This document shows, one piece after another, positions 3,812-15,652 of a stretch of DNA of 48,206 bases. The number at the start of each line of letters is the position of its first letter. Position 1 is the stretch's first letter. The DNA is from Candidatus Omnitrophota bacterium (GTDB lineage: Bacteria > Ratteibacteria > UBA8468 > B48-G9 > DTJG01), in assembly GCA_023484085.1 (NCBI GenBank), contig JAMDAS010000005.1:1-48206 (forward strand). Direction: 5' to 3'. The notes beneath the pieces were generated by a model. It had not been told where the DNA came from. It was given only the letters and a program-made list of their open reading frames with translations, and did no database searches. Position numbers and translations under genes: made by a program.

Positions 3812-4861
3812 ATGAATAAAATTATAAAAGCTGAAGACATCTTTGATAAAATTTCTATTTTGATAGAGCAGGCAAGAAAAAAAGTTGCCACCACAATTAA
3901 CCAGGAAATGATTTTACTTTACTGGAATATCGGAAAAACTATCAAAGAAGAAATAATAAAATCTAAACGTGCGGAATATGGAGAAAAGATAGTGCAATCA
4001 CTGACTGCACTATTAGTACAGCGATATGGAAGAGGTTTCTCTAAAAGAAATATATGGTATATGATCCAAACGTATGAAGCATATCCAATTCTCCAATCAC
4101 TGCTTGGAGAATTTAAAGATTTAAGTTGGACCCACACAATTACCCTTATACCAATTGAAGATAAATTAAAACGACAATTTTATGCGACACTCTGTAGCAA
4201 AGAACAATGGAGCACCAGAACACTGCAAGAAAGAATAAGAACCATGCTTTATGAAAGAACTGCATTATCAAAACTTCCTGAAAAAACCATTGAAATGCAA
4301 TTACTGGAACTGAAAGAAAAAGATAAGATGACACCGGAATTAACTTTCAGGGATCCTTATGTTCTGGATTTTTTGGAACTCTCTGACACATACAGCGAAA
4401 AAGATATAGAAAAAGCAATATTAAACGCACTGGAAAAATTTATCCTGGAATTAGGAAAGGATTTTTATTTTGTGGCAAGACAAAAGAGAATAACTCTTGA
4501 TGATATAGATTATTATATGGACCTGGTATTTTATCACAGGGAACTACGCTGTTTTGTGGTTATAGATTTAAAGCTTGATAAATTCAGGGCAGAATATAAA
4601 GGACAAATGGAATTATATTTAAGATGGCTGGAAAAGTATGAAATGAGACAGGATGAAAACCCGCCCATTGGGATTATCCTTTGTACAGAAAAAGGGAAAG
4701 AACAAATAGAATTATTATTTTTACCGGAAGACAGGATCCGGGTTTCAAAATATTTAACAAAATTACCACAAAAAGAATTATTCTCTGAACAATTACATAA
4801 AGCAATGCAAACAGCACAGGTACAACTTAAAAAAGAAAGTACATGTAGATCGGTTTTTTGA
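3812..4861 (+). CDS. YhcG/DUF1016-family PD-(D/E)xK nuclease
   Basis: A 349-residue protein with the two halves of the YhcG family. The N-terminal helical DUF1016 domain (about 5-160) contains LLYWNIGKTI, AEYGEKIVQSL and the GRGFSKRNIWYM signature. The C-terminal nuclease-like domain (about 175-340) contains FRDPYVLDFL, then DIDYYMDLVFYHRELRCFVVIDLK, where Asp and the DLK motif form the PD-(D/E)xK core. EYKGQMELYLRWLEKYE follows. Family members are linked to defence islands and mobile DNA. The C-terminus ends in an unrelated-looking STCRSVF, so the last residues may have been altered. A TATAAT at 3749-3754 could be its promoter. Confidence 0.85.
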   Translation: MNKIIKAEDIFDKISILIEQARKKVATTINQEMILLYWNIGKTIKEEIIKSKRAEYGEKIVQSLTALLVQRYGRGFSKRNIWYMIQTYEAYPILQSLLGEFKDLSWTHTITLIPIEDKLKRQFYATLCSKEQWSTRTLQERIRTMLYERTALSKLPEKTIEMQLLELKEKDKMTPELTFRDPYVLDFLELSDTYSEKDIEKAILNALEKFILELGKDFYFVARQKRITLDDIDYYMDLVFYHRELRCFVVIDLKLDKFRAEYKGQMELYLRWLEKYEMRQDENPPIGIILCTEKGKEQIELLFLPEDRIRVSKYLTKLPQKELFSEQLHKAMQTAQVQLKKESTCRSVF

Positions 4862-5060
4862 AATCTCTGGAAGCGTTGAGTATCAATGGTTGGACAGGTT
4901 TTTATATTTAAGTTTTTTTGAAAATCCGATACATCTGGCTTTACCAGGGGCAAGAAAGTGGGTTTAAATTGATTATATAGAGGGGTTTTTGCTGGGAATG
5001 GCTTGATTTTGGGAATTTTTTAAGTGGATTTCAATTTTAAAAAAAGAAATAAATTTATGG

Positions 5061-5066
5061 TATAAT
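5061..5066 (+). promoter_or_regulatory. Extended -10 promoter of hicB
   Basis: TATAAT at 5061-5066 is preceded by TGG, giving an extended -10 element, 15 bp before the hicB ATG. No good -35 is present. The region 4862-5060 between the nuclease and this promoter shows no gene. Confidence 0.45.
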
Positions 5067-5081
5067 AAATAAGGTGAAAAT

Positions 5082-5297
5082 ATGGAATTGAAAATTGTTT
5101 TAGAAAAAGGCGAGGATGGTTATATTGTTGTTCACTGTCCTTCTTTAAAGGGATGTTGGTCTCAAGGTAAAACAGAAAAAGAAGCTATTTCTAATATTAA
5201 AGAAGCAATAGAATTATATTTAGAATCAGATGTTTCAGAAAAACAACTAAGAGAAAAAATTAACAGCTATCACAAAATTATGCAAGTTTCTTTATGA
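5082..5297 (+). CDS. hicB: HicB-family antitoxin
   Basis: A 71-residue protein with the HicB partial RNase H-like fold: a first strand MELKIVLEKGEDGYIVVHCPSLKGCWSQG and then TEKEAISNIKEAIELYLE. This is the hallmark of the HicB/UPF0150 family that neutralises the HicA mRNA interferase. AAGGTG precedes ATG 5082. No C-terminal DNA-binding extension is visible. Its stop overlaps the start of the HicA reading frame by ATGA. Because that toxin frame is broken, this antitoxin may now be an orphan. Confidence 0.88.
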   Translation: MELKIVLEKGEDGYIVVHCPSLKGCWSQGKTEKEAISNIKEAIELYLESDVSEKQLREKINSYHKIMQVSL

Positions 5298-5527
5298 GCC
5301 CTAAACCCCCTCTTCTTTCTGGCAGATAAATAGTTAAAGTCTTTCAAAATATTGGATATTATAAAGTTAGCCAAAAAGGTAGTCATATTAAAATATTTAA
5401 TAAAGAAAAAGAAATTACTCTTATTATTCCTGACCACAAAGAAGTTGACCGTTGGACACTTAAAGGAATTTTAAAGGATGCAGAACTTTCCGTAGAAGAA
5501 TTCATCAAAATTCTTAATCGTAGATAA
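5294..5527 (+). pseudogene. hicA: HicA toxin gene with premature stop at codon 12
   Basis: The frame starting at ATG 5294 reads MSPKPPLLSGR, then TAA (5327-5329), then IVKVFQNIGYYKVSQKGSHI and on to VDRWTLKGILKDAELSVEEF before its natural stop at 5525-5527. Length (77 codons), the family start, the catalytic His in GSH and the C-terminal helix are all HicA. Only codon 12, normally acidic in this family, is a stop; GAA or GAG to TAA/TAG needs one or two changes. The four-base overlap with hicB is intact. Either the toxin is dead or a short N-terminally truncated product is made by reinitiation. Confidence 0.85.
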
Positions 5528-5550
5528 AAGTGATTTATAATTTTGAATTT

Positions 5551-6090
5551 TCAATTTGTTTTTTCATAGGCTTCTCTTATTTCTTCAGGGGCGAGGTTTG
5601 AATATATTTGTGTTGTGGTTAATCTTTTATGTCCTACCTGTTTTTGAATTGCCGGAATAGGTGTTTTGTTCATTAGATGATGTACTACATGGCTATGTCG
5701 TAATGTATGCGGATGTATCCAGTTTATTCCTGCTTTTTTACCCCATGTTTTTACAATTTGTTGTATCCGTCTTATGGATAAATCAAAGATTCTTCCTTTT
5801 TTTATTTTCTTTGCTTTTAGGTATGCTTTTAATTCGCTCAAAGTTTCTGCCGGACAATATATTGTTCTGAATTGTTTTGTTTTTGTGTTTTCTGCCGGGA
5901 TAGTTATGAATCTTTCTTTGAAATCAATGTCTTCTACTTTTATTTGTGAAAATTCTCCGGCTCTCATTCCTGAAAGATAGAGTAATTTTAAAATGAGTCT
6001 ATCCCGGAAATTATCACAAATGGATATTAATTTGTTCCATTCTTCAATTTTTAAATACTTGATTTTTCGCTGAAAATTTCGCTTTTGCAT
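5551..6090 (-). CDS. Short tyrosine recombinase (catalytic domain only)
   Basis: A 179-residue integrase-family recombinase. Catalytic residues are visible in order: Arg43 (SGMRAGE), a Lys in the beta-hairpin near residues 70-72, His128 and Arg131 (HPHTLRHSH), His154 (VGHKRL) and Tyr163 (TTTQIYSNL). The N-terminal SAM-like core-binding domain of about 100 residues is absent, so it is either truncated or a minimal XerA-like enzyme. It starts about 110 bp inside a Tn3-like end (6201-6239) and reads inward, the position held by tnpI cointegrate resolvases in Tn4430-type elements. An inverted-repeat core-like site lies between the two. Confidence 0.85.
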   Translation of the reverse strand: MQKRNFQRKIKYLKIEEWNKLISICDNFRDRLILKLLYLSGMRAGEFSQIKVEDIDFKERFITIPAENTKTKQFRTIYCPAETLSELKAYLKAKKIKKGRIFDLSIRRIQQIVKTWGKKAGINWIHPHTLRHSHVVHHLMNKTPIPAIQKQVGHKRLTTTQIYSNLAPEEIREAYEKTN

Positions 6091-6200: not shown

Positions 6201-6239
6201 TTTCGTGGTGTTTTCTCCTCTAAATAAGTCATTATACCC
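6201..6239 (+). repeat. Solo Tn3-like end, recombinase-side class (copy A)
   Basis: Read inward on the minus strand it begins GGGTATAATGACTTATTTAG and continues GAGAAAACACCACGA. The inner half is nearly the same as in copy D at 11128-11165 (GAAAACACCACGA). It faces outward to the right and is 6 bp from the stop of the next gene. No matching opposite end was found to its left. Confidence 0.65.
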
Positions 6240-9205: not shown

Positions 9206-9378
9206 ACTACATTTTTGTTTTAGTAGAATAAAGGGTATAATTACATATTTAGGGCAAATGTTTCACGAGATTACATTTAAGTCTTATAATTATACTCAAC
9301 CTTGTTTATAAACCCTTTGTTATCAACGGGTTTCAAAGGAAATTCCTATGCCATTAAAGTATGGCACAACACGAATAG

Positions 9379-9407
9379 TTGATTTTTCGCAATAAAGTTA
9401 GTATAAT
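9379..9407 (+). promoter_or_regulatory. Promoter of the protease cargo operon
   Basis: TTGATT (9379-9384), a 17 bp spacer and a perfect TATAAT (9402-9407) lie 14 bp before ATG 9422. The predicted transcript start (about 9414) would leave only a very short leader and would exclude most of the AGGAG at 9409-9413. Confidence 0.6.
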
Positions 9408-9421
9408 AGGAGTATAAATTT

Positions 9422-9664
9422 ATGGCTATGATTAAAAAAACAAGTCAAAAAGGTATGATCAGTAAGGTCGCAACAAGGCGCGTTTTAGACCAAAATGTTG
9501 CCGCGTTTAGGGTTTATGATACTTACAAGAAAACCGCCGACATTATAGAGCGCGCGGAGTTTGCGTCTGGAAAAAGAGTAATTTTCAAATCCGACACCGG
9601 CTCTACGCTTAATTTTGAAATCAATCGCTATGGAGTCTACTCAACAACAGCGCATAAAATTTAA
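9422..9664 (+). CDS. 80-residue hypothetical protein before SDH protease
   Basis: A small basic N-terminus (MAMIKKTSQKG) is followed by KVATRRVLDQNVAAFRVYDT and a charged body ending in FEINRYGVYSTTAHKI. I do not recognise a family. It is the first gene of a two-gene unit with its own consensus promoter, and the next gene starts 35 bp inside it, so the two are translationally coupled. That suggests a functional partnership with the protease, perhaps as inhibitor, adaptor or antitoxin-like regulator; this is inference only. Confidence 0.65.
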   Translation: MAMIKKTSQKGMISKVATRRVLDQNVAAFRVYDTYKKTADIIERAEFASGKRVIFKSDTGSTLNFEINRYGVYSTTAHKI

Positions 9665-10661
9665 GACGGTGCAGGATTGGAACGACTATATCGCTCCTCT
9701 GCTTCAATCCGGTAAAGGAATAACCGGAAAGGATTTATTTGAACTTCGCAAAGCGTGCTACGCCGAAATTGAAGCGTTGCGCGAACGGCCGCTTTTAATT
9801 TACGCAACAAAATTTTTGGACGGCGGACCACCCGGAATGCCAAATCAAATTGACTTGTCCGATGTGGACGGATTTACCGACCTTATCAATTCCGTTGGCA
9901 ACAATTTCAAATCCGTTGATGTGCTTTTGCATAGTCCGGGCGGACGGCCTGACGCAACAGAGCGAATTGTCGAAATACTTCGCAACAGATTTAAAGAAGT
10001 AAATTTTTTAGTTCCGCACTCCGCATATTCCGCCGCCACAATGTTGGTCTTGTCCGGGAATGGTATTGTTTTGCACCCAAGCGCAACGCTTGGACCGATT
10101 GACCCGCAAGTAGGCGTTCCGACAAAAGAAGGCATGATCCGTTTCGTTCCAGCAAAATCAATCTTAAATGGCTTTGCGAAAGCTAAAAAATGTATAAAAG
10201 ACGAAGGGCCAGAAACTTTACCCGCCTATATTCCTCTGATTGAAAAATACTCGCTTGATCTTTTTGAGCTTTGCGAAGATTCTGAAAAATTATCTAAAGA
10301 GTTGGTTTCTTCGTGGCTCAAAAAATATATGTTTGCAGGTGTAAAAAATAACGGACGAAAAATCAAAAAAATCGTTTCGTATTTTTCCGATTACAATACC
10401 CACAAAATTCACTCGCGTCCATTAACACCGGAGAAACTCTCATCTTTCGGTTTGAAACTTGAAGTCGCCGAAAATCCACTCCGCGATTTATTGTGGGAAG
10501 CGTATATTTTACTCAACGGATTTTTTAATGTTAGTCAGTTCGTGAAATTATACGAATGTACTAATGGCGTATCGTGGGGCAAGCAATTTCAAAGCATAAT
10601 GGGTCCGCCACAGATGCAACCCCAACCGCGACCGCAATCTCAATCCAAACCACAACAATGA
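9630..10661 (+). CDS. SDH-family serine protease (ClpP/crotonase fold)
   Basis: A 343-residue protein of the serine dehydrogenase proteinase (SDH) family, related to SppA and ClpP. From ATG 9630, HSPGG at about 101-105 is the oxyanion-loop signature of the fold and Ser134 in PHSAYSAATM is the likely nucleophile, followed by NGIVLHPSATLGPIDPQV. SDH proteins normally have a membrane segment; here none is evident, and the C-terminus ends in a Pro/Gln-rich tail, so it may be cytosolic. ATG 9630 is preferred to TTG 9615. No Shine-Dalgarno is seen, so it depends on coupling to the upstream gene. It is cargo of a Tn3-like element. Confidence 0.82.
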   Translation: MESTQQQRIKFKTVQDWNDYIAPLLQSGKGITGKDLFELRKACYAEIEALRERPLLIYATKFLDGGPPGMPNQIDLSDVDGFTDLINSVGNNFKSVDVLLHSPGGRPDATERIVEILRNRFKEVNFLVPHSAYSAATMLVLSGNGIVLHPSATLGPIDPQVGVPTKEGMIRFVPAKSILNGFAKAKKCIKDEGPETLPAYIPLIEKYSLDLFELCEDSEKLSKELVSSWLKKYMFAGVKNNGRKIKKIVSYFSDYNTHKIHSRPLTPEKLSSFGLKLEVAENPLRDLLWEAYILLNGFFNVSQFVKLYECTNGVSWGKQFQSIMGPPQMQPQPRPQSQSKPQQ

Positions 10662-10720
10662 GGTGTTCCAACGAAGTTGGCACAAATTCCGTCGGCGTCC
10701 AAAGTTCAGGCGAGACATAA

Positions 10721-11125
10721 GTGATGGAATGTATGGAAATTCTTTCTATTGCGGCTCAAAAAGGAATAAAAATATATTCAGTTAAAGGGAACTGGCAATT
10801 AGATAATAGTATTCAAAGTAAAATTATTGCTATGGCTTTCTCAATGGCTGCTGAGATTGAAAGAGATTTGATTTCACAAAGGACAAAAGAAGCACTGCGA
10901 ATAAAAAAAGAATCTGGATTTCCATTAGGACGTCCACCAGGTCCGGGAAAAAGTAAATTGGATAAGTTCAGACCAGAAATTGAAGCTCTGTTGATTAACG
11001 GTTCTACCCAGAGATTTATTGCCAGACGATATCAAACTACTGAATCTAATTTGTTTAATTGGATGAAAAAACATAAAATACAAAATGTTCGTTCTGAGAT
11101 TCAAAATGAAAGGGTAAAATTATAA
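10721..11125 (+). pseudogene. N-terminally truncated serine resolvase
   Basis: The readable frame (134 residues from GTG 10721; stop just before it) corresponds to the second half of a small serine recombinase: KGIKIYSVKGNWQLDN, the E-helix MAAEIERDLISQRTKEAL and a C-terminal helix-turn-helix (STQRFIARRYQTTESNLFNW). The catalytic Ser domain start (YxRVST) is missing. The gene reads toward the Tn3-like end at 11128-11165, as the intact resolvase at 14692 does toward its own end. The protease cargo appears to have replaced the 5' half. Confidence 0.82.
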
Positions 11126-11165
11126 AAACTCGTGGTGTTTTCCCCCGGAATATGTAATTTTACCC

Positions 11166-11297
11166 AAATATGCAAAATATGCAATTATATCCCAAAATAT
11201 AAAAAATTGGAGAAACAAATTAATGGGAAAAGCGTGAAATTAAAGGGGGTTTGACAAAATACCGTGAAACATTTGCCCTAAATATGTAATTATACCC
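11166..11297 (+). repeat. Right-end remnant of a second Tn3-like element (copy E)
   Basis: AAATTGGAGAAACAAATTAA (TnpA tail, ending KIGETN-stop) at about 11203-11222 is followed by AAGGGGGTTTGACAAAATAC and the end itself at 11260-11297. The whole approximately 100 bp aligns with copy G (15553-15652) with scattered differences. It abuts the end at 11165 directly, so two elements are back to back. Confidence 0.7.
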
Positions 11298-12647: not shown

Positions 12648-13006
12648 ATGAATACTTCAAATAATATATATACTTGTCCGATGCATCCGCAGATTATTAG
12701 TGATAAACAAGACGACTGTTCTATATGCGGCATGGCACTTGAATTGCAATCTGTTTCTTTAGAAGAAGAAAAGAATGTTGAACTTATCTATATGTCAAGA
12801 CGTTTTTGGATTTGTCTTGTTTTAACCATTCCTATTATTTTTCTTGCTATGAGTAATTATATACCAGCAATATCAATTAAAAATATCCTTTCTTTTAAAG
12901 CAGTTGAATGGCTTGAGGGTATAATTACCACGCCGATAGTTTTGTGGGGAGGATGGCCATTTTTTGTCAGAGGATTTAATTCTATAAAAAACCGCAGTCT
13001 AAATAT
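12648..13006 (+). pseudogene. Truncated heavy-metal P-type ATPase (CopA/CopB-like)
   Basis: The frame begins MNTSNNIYTCPMHPQIISD and then CSICGMALE, the YHS-like metal-binding motif (CPMHP...CPMCGM) found at the N-terminus of CopB/SilP-type copper ATPases. Two membrane helices and WPFFVRGFNSIKNRSLNM follow, the usual lead into membrane segment 3. At exactly this point (13007) the Tn3-like end GGGTAAAATTACA begins and the frame closes after GKIT. About 85 percent of the enzyme (phosphorylation and ATP domains) is missing, so it is non-functional. Confidence 0.85.
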
Positions 13007-13019
13007 GGGTAAAATTACA

Positions 13020-14643
13020 TAGGGCTTCACGAAACTAAAGATTTGGAATAAAAGACTTAATGAAACGAATACGTTTTGGTTCATTGACAAAAGAAGCAAA
13101 GAGAGCGACGGCCAGAACCGTAATATGAGAGATGGTGCATAAGTTGGCGGTGGCACGCAGTCCTTTGACTGATGGTTCCTGCATAGAAATAGCAAGGAGT
13201 CTGGAGAAAATGCGTTCACTGCTGGATCTGCGGTTGAAGTCCTTTTTGAAAGATTGGGAATCATAGTCTATTAAATGGCGAATGTCCCGGTCGACGCGGA
13301 TGTTTTTGTAACAACCAGAACCTTTTTCAAACTGAGGATGAGACCACGGACAATCAGGATGCAATGCTGCAAACTTTTTGGAAGCACGAATAGGGCAATA
13401 GAATTTATGGCGCATTCTATTTTGTCGGGGATCCCAGTATATTCCACGGGATATCATTTCAAATCCAGCGATGCAGACTGGAGCACCGGAAAAAGAAAGA
13501 GTTGGTTGGGAACCGGAGTCACGCCGGAGATTTCTGGCAATACGCGGTTTAGCATGCAAAGTGTTAAGAATAAAATCAATAATAGTTGCGGAGTCATATT
13601 CAGAATCTGCCATGACTGCTTTCGGATGAAAGCGATAATGTTCTTTCACAATTATAAGTTGGGGGATGATAACATTGGTTTCATAAACATTGGCAGGTAG
13701 TGTACACTCAACTATGGGTAATTCGGATACCGTATCATTAATAAGATGATTACGATAGCCCCAAAAGAATTCAATTTTCTTTTTTCTATCAGGAAAAGTA
13801 GAAAAGACGCTTAATCTAGCATCCGGGTCACTGTGAGGTGGATGATCTTTAGAAAATCTATTATGAACATGTGTTTTTAGATTATTATTTTTCACATTCG
13901 CTTTAATAGGACAAGCATCAACAGAAAGATATTTTCCGGAAATAACTTTACGTTTAATAAGATGAAGAACGAGTGTTTCCCGAATTTGTTGCAAAATAGC
14001 ATTGTCGATGGTGCGAAGAAAAACAGAGAATCGTTCGACTGGAATCGGTTCTGTTCTGGTAGGGAAACCAAGTATATATGAAAGCTTCGGCCGTTCATAG
14101 AGCTCAACTGTCAGGTCACTCAAAGTAAGAAGAGAACGGAGATTTTTAAATATGAGTGCCTTGGTAATGGCAGCATGGCTAATAGGCCGGCGGCCCGTTT
14201 GAAAAATATTATCTAACGATGAAAGATCCAGCAGAGAAAAGAAACGTTGGTACTTTTCCATAGGTTCTTTGAAAAGTTCCTCTGGGTCGAACAAAATTGG
14301 TTGAAACATATTTACCTCCCGTTTCGTGAAAGTCGCATAAAAATATTAGATACATAGTATCATCTCGAAAGGGGAGGAGGTAAAAAGAGAAAAATTAAAA
14401 TTTAGGCAGAATAAGGGTTTTCAAATAAAATAAAAATAAAAAAAATAGGGTTTCACGAAACTAAACGACAGTGATTTTTGCCCTCCTGTCCTTCGGAAAA
14501 AATGGCAAAATAGAGAAAAATGACAAAAAATACATGCGTAAACCCGCACTGCTCAACGATTTTCATAGCAGGAGGGCAAATTTAAAATAGGCAGTCTCTG
14601 AAACCGTTGTGCCTCAATGGTTTCGAAGTTTCGTGAAAGGCTA
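13020..14643 (-). mobile_element. DDE insertion sequence inserted in the transposon end
   Basis: Inverted ends TAGGGCTTCACGAAAC (from 13020) and, read inward from 14643, TAGCCTTTCACGAAAC frame the transposase gene. TAAAATTACA is duplicated on both sides (13010-13019 and 14644-14653), a 10 bp target duplication. The right 330 bp contain a further end-like copy (TAGGGTTTCACGAAAC at about 14452) and a 12 bp inverted repeat, TTTGCCCTCCTG at 14477 with its complement at 14569-14580. Removing the IS restores a perfect Tn3-like end. Confidence 0.82.
13035..14309 (-). CDS. IS4/IS1182-like DDE transposase
   Basis: A 424-residue transposase. The N-terminal DUF772-like region (TGRRPISHAAITKALIFKNL, SDLTVEL) is followed by the DDE core: SVDACPIKANVKN (first Asp), MADSEYDSATIIDF (second Asp) and, near the end, RRSSSERIFSRLLAI (Glu). 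A Cys/His-containing insert (FYCPIRASKKFAALHPDCPW) is typical of IS1182-like transposases. The gene is full length and uninterrupted, so the element may be active. GGGAGG (14316-14321) precedes ATG 14309. A 3' remnant of the same gene lies at 8857. Confidence 0.88.
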   Translation of the reverse strand: MFQPILFDPEELFKEPMEKYQRFFSLLDLSSLDNIFQTGRRPISHAAITKALIFKNLRSLLTLSDLTVELYERPKLSYILGFPTRTEPIPVERFSVFLRTIDNAILQQIRETLVLHLIKRKVISGKYLSVDACPIKANVKNNNLKTHVHNRFSKDHPPHSDPDARLSVFSTFPDRKKKIEFFWGYRNHLINDTVSELPIVECTLPANVYETNVIIPQLIIVKEHYRFHPKAVMADSEYDSATIIDFILNTLHAKPRIARNLRRDSGSQPTLSFSGAPVCIAGFEMISRGIYWDPRQNRMRHKFYCPIRASKKFAALHPDCPWSHPQFEKGSGCYKNIRVDRDIRHLIDYDSQSFKKDFNRRSSSERIFSRLLAISMQEPSVKGLRATANLCTISHITVLAVALFASFVNEPKRIRFIKSFIPNL

Positions 14644-14691
14644 TAAAATTACATATTTAGGGGGAAAATACCGCGTCCTTAACCCAAATTG

Positions 14692-15249
14692 CTATCCATT
14701 TTGCTCTCTGATGTATTTATAAAGAGTAGGTTTGGAAATACCCATCATTTGGCAAATATCTTTTATAGAATGTTTTTTACTTGTATATAATTCAACCACA
14801 AGTTTTCGTTTATTTTCTGGCAATAACTTAGGTCTACCTCCTTGCCGACCCCTGGTTCTTGCCGCTTCTAATCCTGCACGAGTTCTTTCCCGGATTAAAT
14901 TTCTTTCAAATTCAGCCAGTGCTGCAAAAATATGAAAAACCAATTTTCCACCGCTTGTGGTAGTATCAATAGTTTCTTGTAAGCTTTTAAATCCAACACC
15001 TTGCTGTTCCAGTTCATTTACCCATTCAATTAAATGTTTTAAAGTGCGTCCTAACCGGTCTAAACGCCACACAATCAATATATCATCTTTCCGTAAAATT
15101 TCTTTGAGTTTATTTAAACCAGGCCGTTCTGCAACGGAGTCGCTAATTTCATCAGTGATGATTTTTTCACACCCTGCTTGTTTTAATGCATCTATTTGTA
15201 AGTTTAAGTTTTGTTCTATAGTTGAAACGCGAGCATACCCAACTTTCAT
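14692..15249 (-). CDS. tnpR: Serine resolvase of the Tn3-like element
   Basis: A 185-residue small serine recombinase. The N-terminus MKVGYARVST contains the nucleophile Ser9. The catalytic arginines lie in IVWRLDRLGRTLKHL and the E-helix AALAEFERNLIRERTRAGLE follows. The last 45 residues form a Hin-type helix-turn-helix (SIKDICQMMGISKPTLYKYI). Length and domain order equal Tn3 TnpR. CCGGAGG-like sequence upstream of ATG 15249 serves as ribosome site. It reads toward the recombinase-side end of its element and has a dyad 73 bp upstream, consistent with a res site. It looks intact. Confidence 0.92.
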   Translation of the reverse strand: MKVGYARVSTIEQNLNLQIDALKQAGCEKIITDEISDSVAERPGLNKLKEILRKDDILIVWRLDRLGRTLKHLIEWVNELEQQGVGFKSLQETIDTTTSGGKLVFHIFAALAEFERNLIRERTRAGLEAARTRGRQGGRPKLLPENKRKLVVELYTSKKHSIKDICQMMGISKPTLYKYIREQNG

Positions 15250-15578: not shown

Positions 15579-15652
15579 CATGGAAGGGGCGAAATTATAG
15601 GGGGTTTGGCAAAATCCCATGCAACTTTCACCCTAAATATGCAATTTTACCC

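Follow-up and report, generated by a model that had tools for sequence, protein, structure and literature searches.

A mobile pair of a small gene and an SDH-family serine protease gene in an Omnitrophota genome, and its phage-borne relatives

Do a small gene and the protease gene that it overlaps, set between inverted DNA ends in an Omnitrophota genome, belong together as a mobile unit, and if so, what might such a unit do? We addressed this question in a window of 48,206 nucleotides, the whole stretch of DNA that was analysed, which derives from a 906-kb genome sequence that is 62.6% complete. The pair and its immediate surroundings comprise the following features.

9422 to 9664, forward strand: small partner gene, 80 aa (open reading frame list, selection analysis and structure model)
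9630 to 10661, forward strand: SDH-family ClpP-fold serine protease, 343 aa, with invariant S134, D158 and H261
9630 to 9664, forward strand: stretch of 35 bp shared by both reading frames, of constant length across the seven closely related loci
9379 to 9407, forward strand: promoter-like sequence TTGATT-17-TATAAT, conserved in position in the related loci L010 and L013
9372 to 10704, forward strand: imported cassette (DNA homology to the Patescibacteria loci L010 and L012; G+C contrast)
10721 to 11125, forward strand: what is left of an Mpi-family serine recombinase, its C-terminal part (domain and family models)
9233 to 9272, forward strand: left-hand inverted end of the recombinase element, whose outermost 35 bp recur unchanged at 11263 to 11297
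11126 to 11165, forward strand: recombinase-side inverted end (inverted-repeat comparison)
11166 to 11297, reverse strand: extra fragment from this family of ends, in inverted orientation, outer 35 bp identical to 9233 to 9267

Gene pair, recombinase remnant and inverted ends

The protease begins with the ATG at 9630 and stops at 10661, and since the small reading frame stops at 9664, the two overlap by 35 bp, which confirms the gene arrangement of the original prediction. Both genes had also been assigned to one shared promoter, TTGATT-17-TATAAT. This sequence is present at 9379–9407, but matches of its type occur in the AT-rich DNA of the window barely above chance frequency, with 8 found against 6.0 expected. 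The equivalent position holds TTGATT-17-TATGAT in L010 and TTGAGA-17-TATAAT in L013. Assuming a transcription start some 7 nt beyond the -10 box, the leader of the small gene would measure about 8 nt. Just past the protease stop, at 10661–10690, lies a short stem-like sequence that is also found in L010, L011 and L012, with bases that differ from locus to locus; because it lacks a T run, it is not an ordinary terminator.

The pair was further proposed to have replaced the 5′ half of a resolvase gene within the complete inverted ends of a Tn3-like transposon. The loss from the resolvase gene is borne out, as the remnant at 10721–11125 matches only positions 77–199 of a 203-position Mpi-family recombinase model, and the N-terminal part is therefore gone. 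Inverted ends are present as well (9233–9272 and 11126–11165, 40 nt at 73% identity), but calling them complete is too strong, since the left end retains just its outermost 35–40 bp. A better partner for this left end is 11263–11297, which agrees with it in 35 of 35 nt. The end family has 17 matches in the window at three or fewer mismatches, as compared to 2.2 expected.

The Tn3 part of the proposal fared worse. Inverted ends flanking the pair and a remnant of resolvase type would fit a Tn3-like transposon with selected cargo; yet Tn3 transposase (PF01526) was found in none of 13 genomes, including the source genome, where its absence is not certain given the 62.6% completeness. The ends begin with GGGTA, the cassette boundary falls within the element, and a 5-bp target duplication is absent, with GAATAAA preceding 9233, AAATATG following 11165 and AATCTTC following 11297. 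We thus consider a Tn3-like transposon very improbable. A cassette inside a decayed serine-recombinase element is the more fitting description of the pair, and this element is not a demonstrated relative of Tn3.

Other recombination-related genes lie elsewhere in the window. An IS1182/IS5-like element at 13007–14655 (transposase 13035–14309, minus strand) sits within another copy of the end family, and TAAAATTACATA occurs at both 13010–13021 and 14644–14655, which looks like a 12-bp target duplication. An N-terminal piece at 12648–13022, with a heavy-metal-binding domain, apparently stems from a P-type ATPase truncated by the element at about 13006. An intact serine recombinase of 185 aa (14692–15249), distantly similar to the remnant adjoining the pair, is flanked by ends of the same family (at 15652 on the other side) and has one full copy in the genome. 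The minus strand at 5551–6090 encodes a phage-integrase-family tyrosine recombinase, with another solo end nearby at 6239.

Related loci and horizontal transfer

Scanning a genome collection with the protease returned five loci, three in Patescibacteria (92–93% identity), one in Omnitrophica (76%) and one in Ignavibacteria (34%). The small gene lies upstream of the protease in all four non-Ignavibacteria loci (L010–L013). The partner profile matched two of 379 Patescibacteria genomes, adding L019, the other being the known L010 genome. A protease search added L031; SDH protease matches of some kind came from 27 of the 379 genomes, and three of these, L010, L019 and L031, were close matches as judged by score. 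Within the Omnitrophota sample, two of 237 matched the partner profile, L013 and a weak partial match (G599/L020, E 7e-4, within a frame of 551 codons) that was left uncounted.

The 35-bp overlap is the same in the window, L010–L013, L019 and L031. Identity ranged from 60 to 86% for the partner and from 71 to 93% for the protease in L010, L011, L012, L013 and L019, while the L031 pair was recognised by its position and its identical overlap. L012 carries a frameshift near the protease start (446–560) in otherwise about 90% identical sequence, so that either the sequence is in error or the gene is broken. With the overlap codons excluded, the small gene yielded dN/dS values of 0.07–0.24 where dS was unsaturated, indicating that it is under purifying selection.

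A search for the small protein in 99 relatives matched the source genome only. A close protease homologue is likewise absent from the 35 genomes of the phylum, 6 of which had any SDH match, the best one outside the source genome scoring 53 bits. DNA homology to L010 and L012 spans approximately 9372 to 10704, and the cassette has a G+C content of 0.42, as compared to 0.36 for the window and about 0.25–0.33 for the flanks. Given these homology bounds, the G+C contrast and the lack of a close homologue in these 35 genomes, we conclude that the pair was imported as a cassette, promoter included.

The original prediction had named two results that would count against it, namely rare co-occurrence of the two genes elsewhere and a protease encoded on the backbone of close relatives. 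Neither occurred: the pair recurs with the same overlap in six related loci from Patescibacteria and Omnitrophota sequences, and the protease is not part of the relatives' backbone. Sequence comparison thereby establishes the small gene and the protease as a conserved, co-moving pair spread by horizontal transfer. The pair has crossed phyla, the window protease being 92–93% identical to those of Patescibacteria.

A phage-borne protease clade and its small neighbours

The window protease matched the SDH family model PF01972 with an E-value of 5.8e-14 and 52.2 bits, above the cut-off of 31.3, and scored 66.1 bits against the NCBIfam equivalog NF047768, below the cut-off of 250. Its structure model (pLDDT 89.1, pTM 0.86) exhibits a ClpP-type fold with helical additions. 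The nearest solved fold was that of 1510-N (VIA Z 13.8, rmsd 3.6, 181 aligned), with ClpP chains tying within 1 Z. Searching a viral library by fold gave giant-virus SDH proteinases as best matches, several per virus.

Starting from matches in phages and plasmids, clade relatives of the protease were found in prophages of Klebsiella and Pseudomonas, in Gordonia phage BeeGee, in a Mu-like Shewanella phage and in Porphyromonas phages. Seven phage records matched, comprising the Shewanella and Gordonia phages and five Porphyromonas prophage records. The best family was PHROG 11747, with an E-value of 5.9e-49 for residues 35–283 of the window protease and 4.6e-114 for the Klebsiella prophage homologue. 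Three scans of viral contigs provided 95 loci (80 of 123 matches were kept in the first, clade-alignment scan); using the window's own protease as query, 11 candidate stretches were returned from viral contigs and none was confirmed. Proteins that agreed throughout their last 120 residues were merged and loci with fewer than 300 bases upstream were removed. Clade membership required a score above 250 bits against a clade profile built from 10 sequences, and on this basis 78 clade loci and 35 other SDH proteases were left, near relatives still included. Two more distant SDH genes from E. coli prophages, L025 and L026, had scores that placed them beyond the clade, and they were excluded. The latter, a distant SDH protease at 4857–5756 of its locus, directly follows a LexA/CI-type repressor gene in a lambda-like prophage, a position often occupied by exclusion genes.

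Twelve positions never vary among 49 clade sequences. S134, D158 and H261 are present in 12 of 12 clade sequences and also in 35, 34 and 34, respectively, of the 35 other SDH proteases; being kept beyond the clade, they are probably the catalytic residues. The residues that mark the clade, H101, Y207, C215, R263, K306, E309 and G313, are candidates for contacting the partner.

Because the protease was the sole query for the viral loci, the count of adjoining small genes is independent of the partner. A reading frame of 45–115 aa occupied the strict upstream window in 59 of 78 clade loci. The same was true of 38 of 146 control genes, taken from these loci and 200 aa or longer, and of 5 of 35 SDH proteases outside the clade. 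Among the 19 misses, several had the frame further upstream and about nine directly downstream. When a neighbour of 50–95 aa was accepted on either side, 69 of 72 clade loci had one, versus 50 of 118 control genes and 15 of 32 SDH proteases outside the clade; this two-sided count required 250 bases downstream, and its window was set after the misses had been inspected. Both clade counts contain near relatives, merging having been limited to identical last 120 residues. Such near-obligate adjacency makes it likely that the partner binds the protease.

The partners themselves have diverged too far to be aligned convincingly as one set. What they share is a tail: their last 25 residues have a Ser/Thr fraction of 0.23 (n=52), as compared to 0.085 in 22 control frames of the same size (p 1e-8), and their first 25 residues do not differ from the controls in this respect. 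Profiles of two partner groups, with seeds picked by eye, recruited other partners in 9 of 19 and 10 of 15 non-seed matches over a base of 124 in 2595 (p 4e-8 and 7e-11), with weak E-values and with upstream and downstream partners both among the recruits. The family of the window partner aligned to the phage partners at an hhalign E-value of 0.17, which 4 of 100 column-shuffled profiles equalled, and its link to them lies in position, overlap, size and tail. As this profile similarity is insignificant, the case for a single origin of all partners draws on their position and layout, the composition of their tails and the weak recruitment. The small protein had no match in phages or viral contigs, and none in plasmids with the Omnitrophota query. 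Its structure model is poor (pLDDT 60.5) and consists of a helix at residues 9–48, which the sequence predicts to be charged and not membrane-like, and a C-terminal beta hairpin. Domain and family models recognised no known effector or membrane-pore domain in it.

Candidate roles and known systems

We then considered what surrounds the pair. Directly upstream of it, L010 encodes a type II methyltransferase, the candidate defence protein PDC-S57 and a type II restriction enzyme; in L012, the end of the same restriction gene adjoins the pair, and in L031 the C-terminus of a type III methyltransferase lies two genes away. Restriction-modification genes thus occur near three of the six non-phage loci by raw count. 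No recognised defence gene adjoins the pair in L011, L013 or L019, where PADLOC covered some of the neighbours. Among phages, at least 12 of 67 loci have an integrase immediately downstream; in the others a lysis, methyltransferase, terminase or uncharacterised gene takes this place, and the upstream neighbours are mixed. Integrase-side and mixed placement is typical of accessory genes of temperate phages. PADLOC matches among the downstream neighbours were methyltransferases, PD-Lambda-5, SoFic, PD-T7-4 and PDC-S04, each in one or two of the 67 loci by raw count, and most phage neighbours of clade members are not defence genes. The pair itself matched no model of PADLOC 2.0.0, the closest approaches being one of 49 protease clade members at E 0.009 and the window partner at a best E of 0.0089. 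For the defence or stress role of the original prediction, the restriction-modification genes near L010, L012 and L031 and the temperate-phage setting provide a faint pointer, against which stands the lack of a PADLOC match. Judged by these neighbourhoods, a defence role of the pair would be plausible.

How such a role might be exerted can be outlined. The helical part of the partner would dock onto the protease, and its Ser/Thr-rich C-terminal hairpin would reach the active site (Ser134-His261-Asp158) and control the enzyme, acting as a substrate-like inhibitor or as a specificity tail. Upon phage infection, the partner would be lost or changed and the protease would cut a phage or host protein, a cleavage that would protect the lysogen, or the cell that carries the island. 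Control by the tail, activation by phage and the ensuing protection are all conjectural steps. We tentatively favour this reading, a mobile prophage or island module whose partner tail controls a ClpP-like protease acting against invading phage, as a real possibility that falls somewhat short of an even chance. With a little more reserve, we envisage a widespread, undescribed immune module of prophages and islands in which a tiny, rapidly diversifying partner holds and aims a ClpP-fold SDH protease, with its Ser/Thr-rich tail occupying the enzyme, until an infecting phage releases or retargets it. In the accessible portions of the open-licence literature, including PMC9519451, PMC12419801, PMC8541194 and PMC13092281, we found no description of the protease and partner pair, which is not proof of its absence.

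The near-obligate adjacency and the conserved class of tail would equally fit a small protein that is the dedicated substrate of the protease, its tail being cleaved to release an N-terminal fragment that is active, in the manner of protease-activated effector pairs. The fold relative 1510-N, a stomatin-homolog-specific protease solved with a substrate peptide, also points this way. However, the partner has no known effector or membrane-pore domain, its charged helix 9–48 does not resemble a membrane segment and its tail is small for an inhibitory domain, and we regard a substrate role as unlikely. Carriage by temperate phages and the adjoining restriction genes are also what one would expect of a device directed against the host, with a phage-borne protease degrading host defence or regulatory proteins and the partner serving as its targeting adaptor. 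Yet the pair is kept in Patescibacteria, Omnitrophota and the window genome with no obvious phage genes adjoining, and it is under purifying selection there, which renders an anti-defence device distinctly unlikely.

No better prospects attend the view that the protease serves virion maturation or housekeeping regulation in phages, with the small gene as an unrelated operon neighbour and the window copy as neutral cargo; we judge it distinctly unlikely too. Weak matches to the ClpP-fold head-maturation proteases phrog_1684 and phrog_53 argue for it, and small genes are common beside phage genes, as the 50 of 118 control genes illustrate. But the best PHROG of the clade is a separate one (11747, E 5.9e-49), the 69 of 72 adjacency lies above the control rate, and the neighbours are mostly integrase, lysis and mixed genes instead of head genes: portal was recorded upstream in 2 of 71 loci and terminase small subunit downstream in 2 of 67, counts for which not each locus was inspected. 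A nearly obligate, fast-evolving partner with one kind of tail offers a handle on the role of PHROG 11747 proteases. Should the immune reading be true, proteolysis by a ClpP-fold enzyme would be added to prophage-borne defence.

Comparison with known systems places the pair as follows. The clade resembles the SDH family (PF01972 and NF047768) in its score above the Pfam cut-off, its ClpP fold and its invariant S134, D158 and H261, and differs from it in the sub-cut-off NCBIfam score, the clade-marking residues and the adjoining small partner. PHROG 11747, the best family for the window protease, has no annotated function, and the window copy lies outside any recognisable phage. For 1510-N (PH1510, an NfeD-type stomatin-specific protease), the nearest solved fold, database entries treat K138 as key (K138A mutants), whereas the clade conserves D158 and H261. 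Operons of type II toxin-antitoxin systems have a small first gene overlapping a larger second one. The layout of the window pair is alike, but it matches no known toxin or antitoxin family. A nuclease and a trypsin-like protease are reported to form an immune pair in mobile loci (PMC12799240). The window module resembles such pairs in that a mobile locus encodes a protease together with a single dedicated partner, and it differs from them in its protease fold, in its partner and in having no nuclease.
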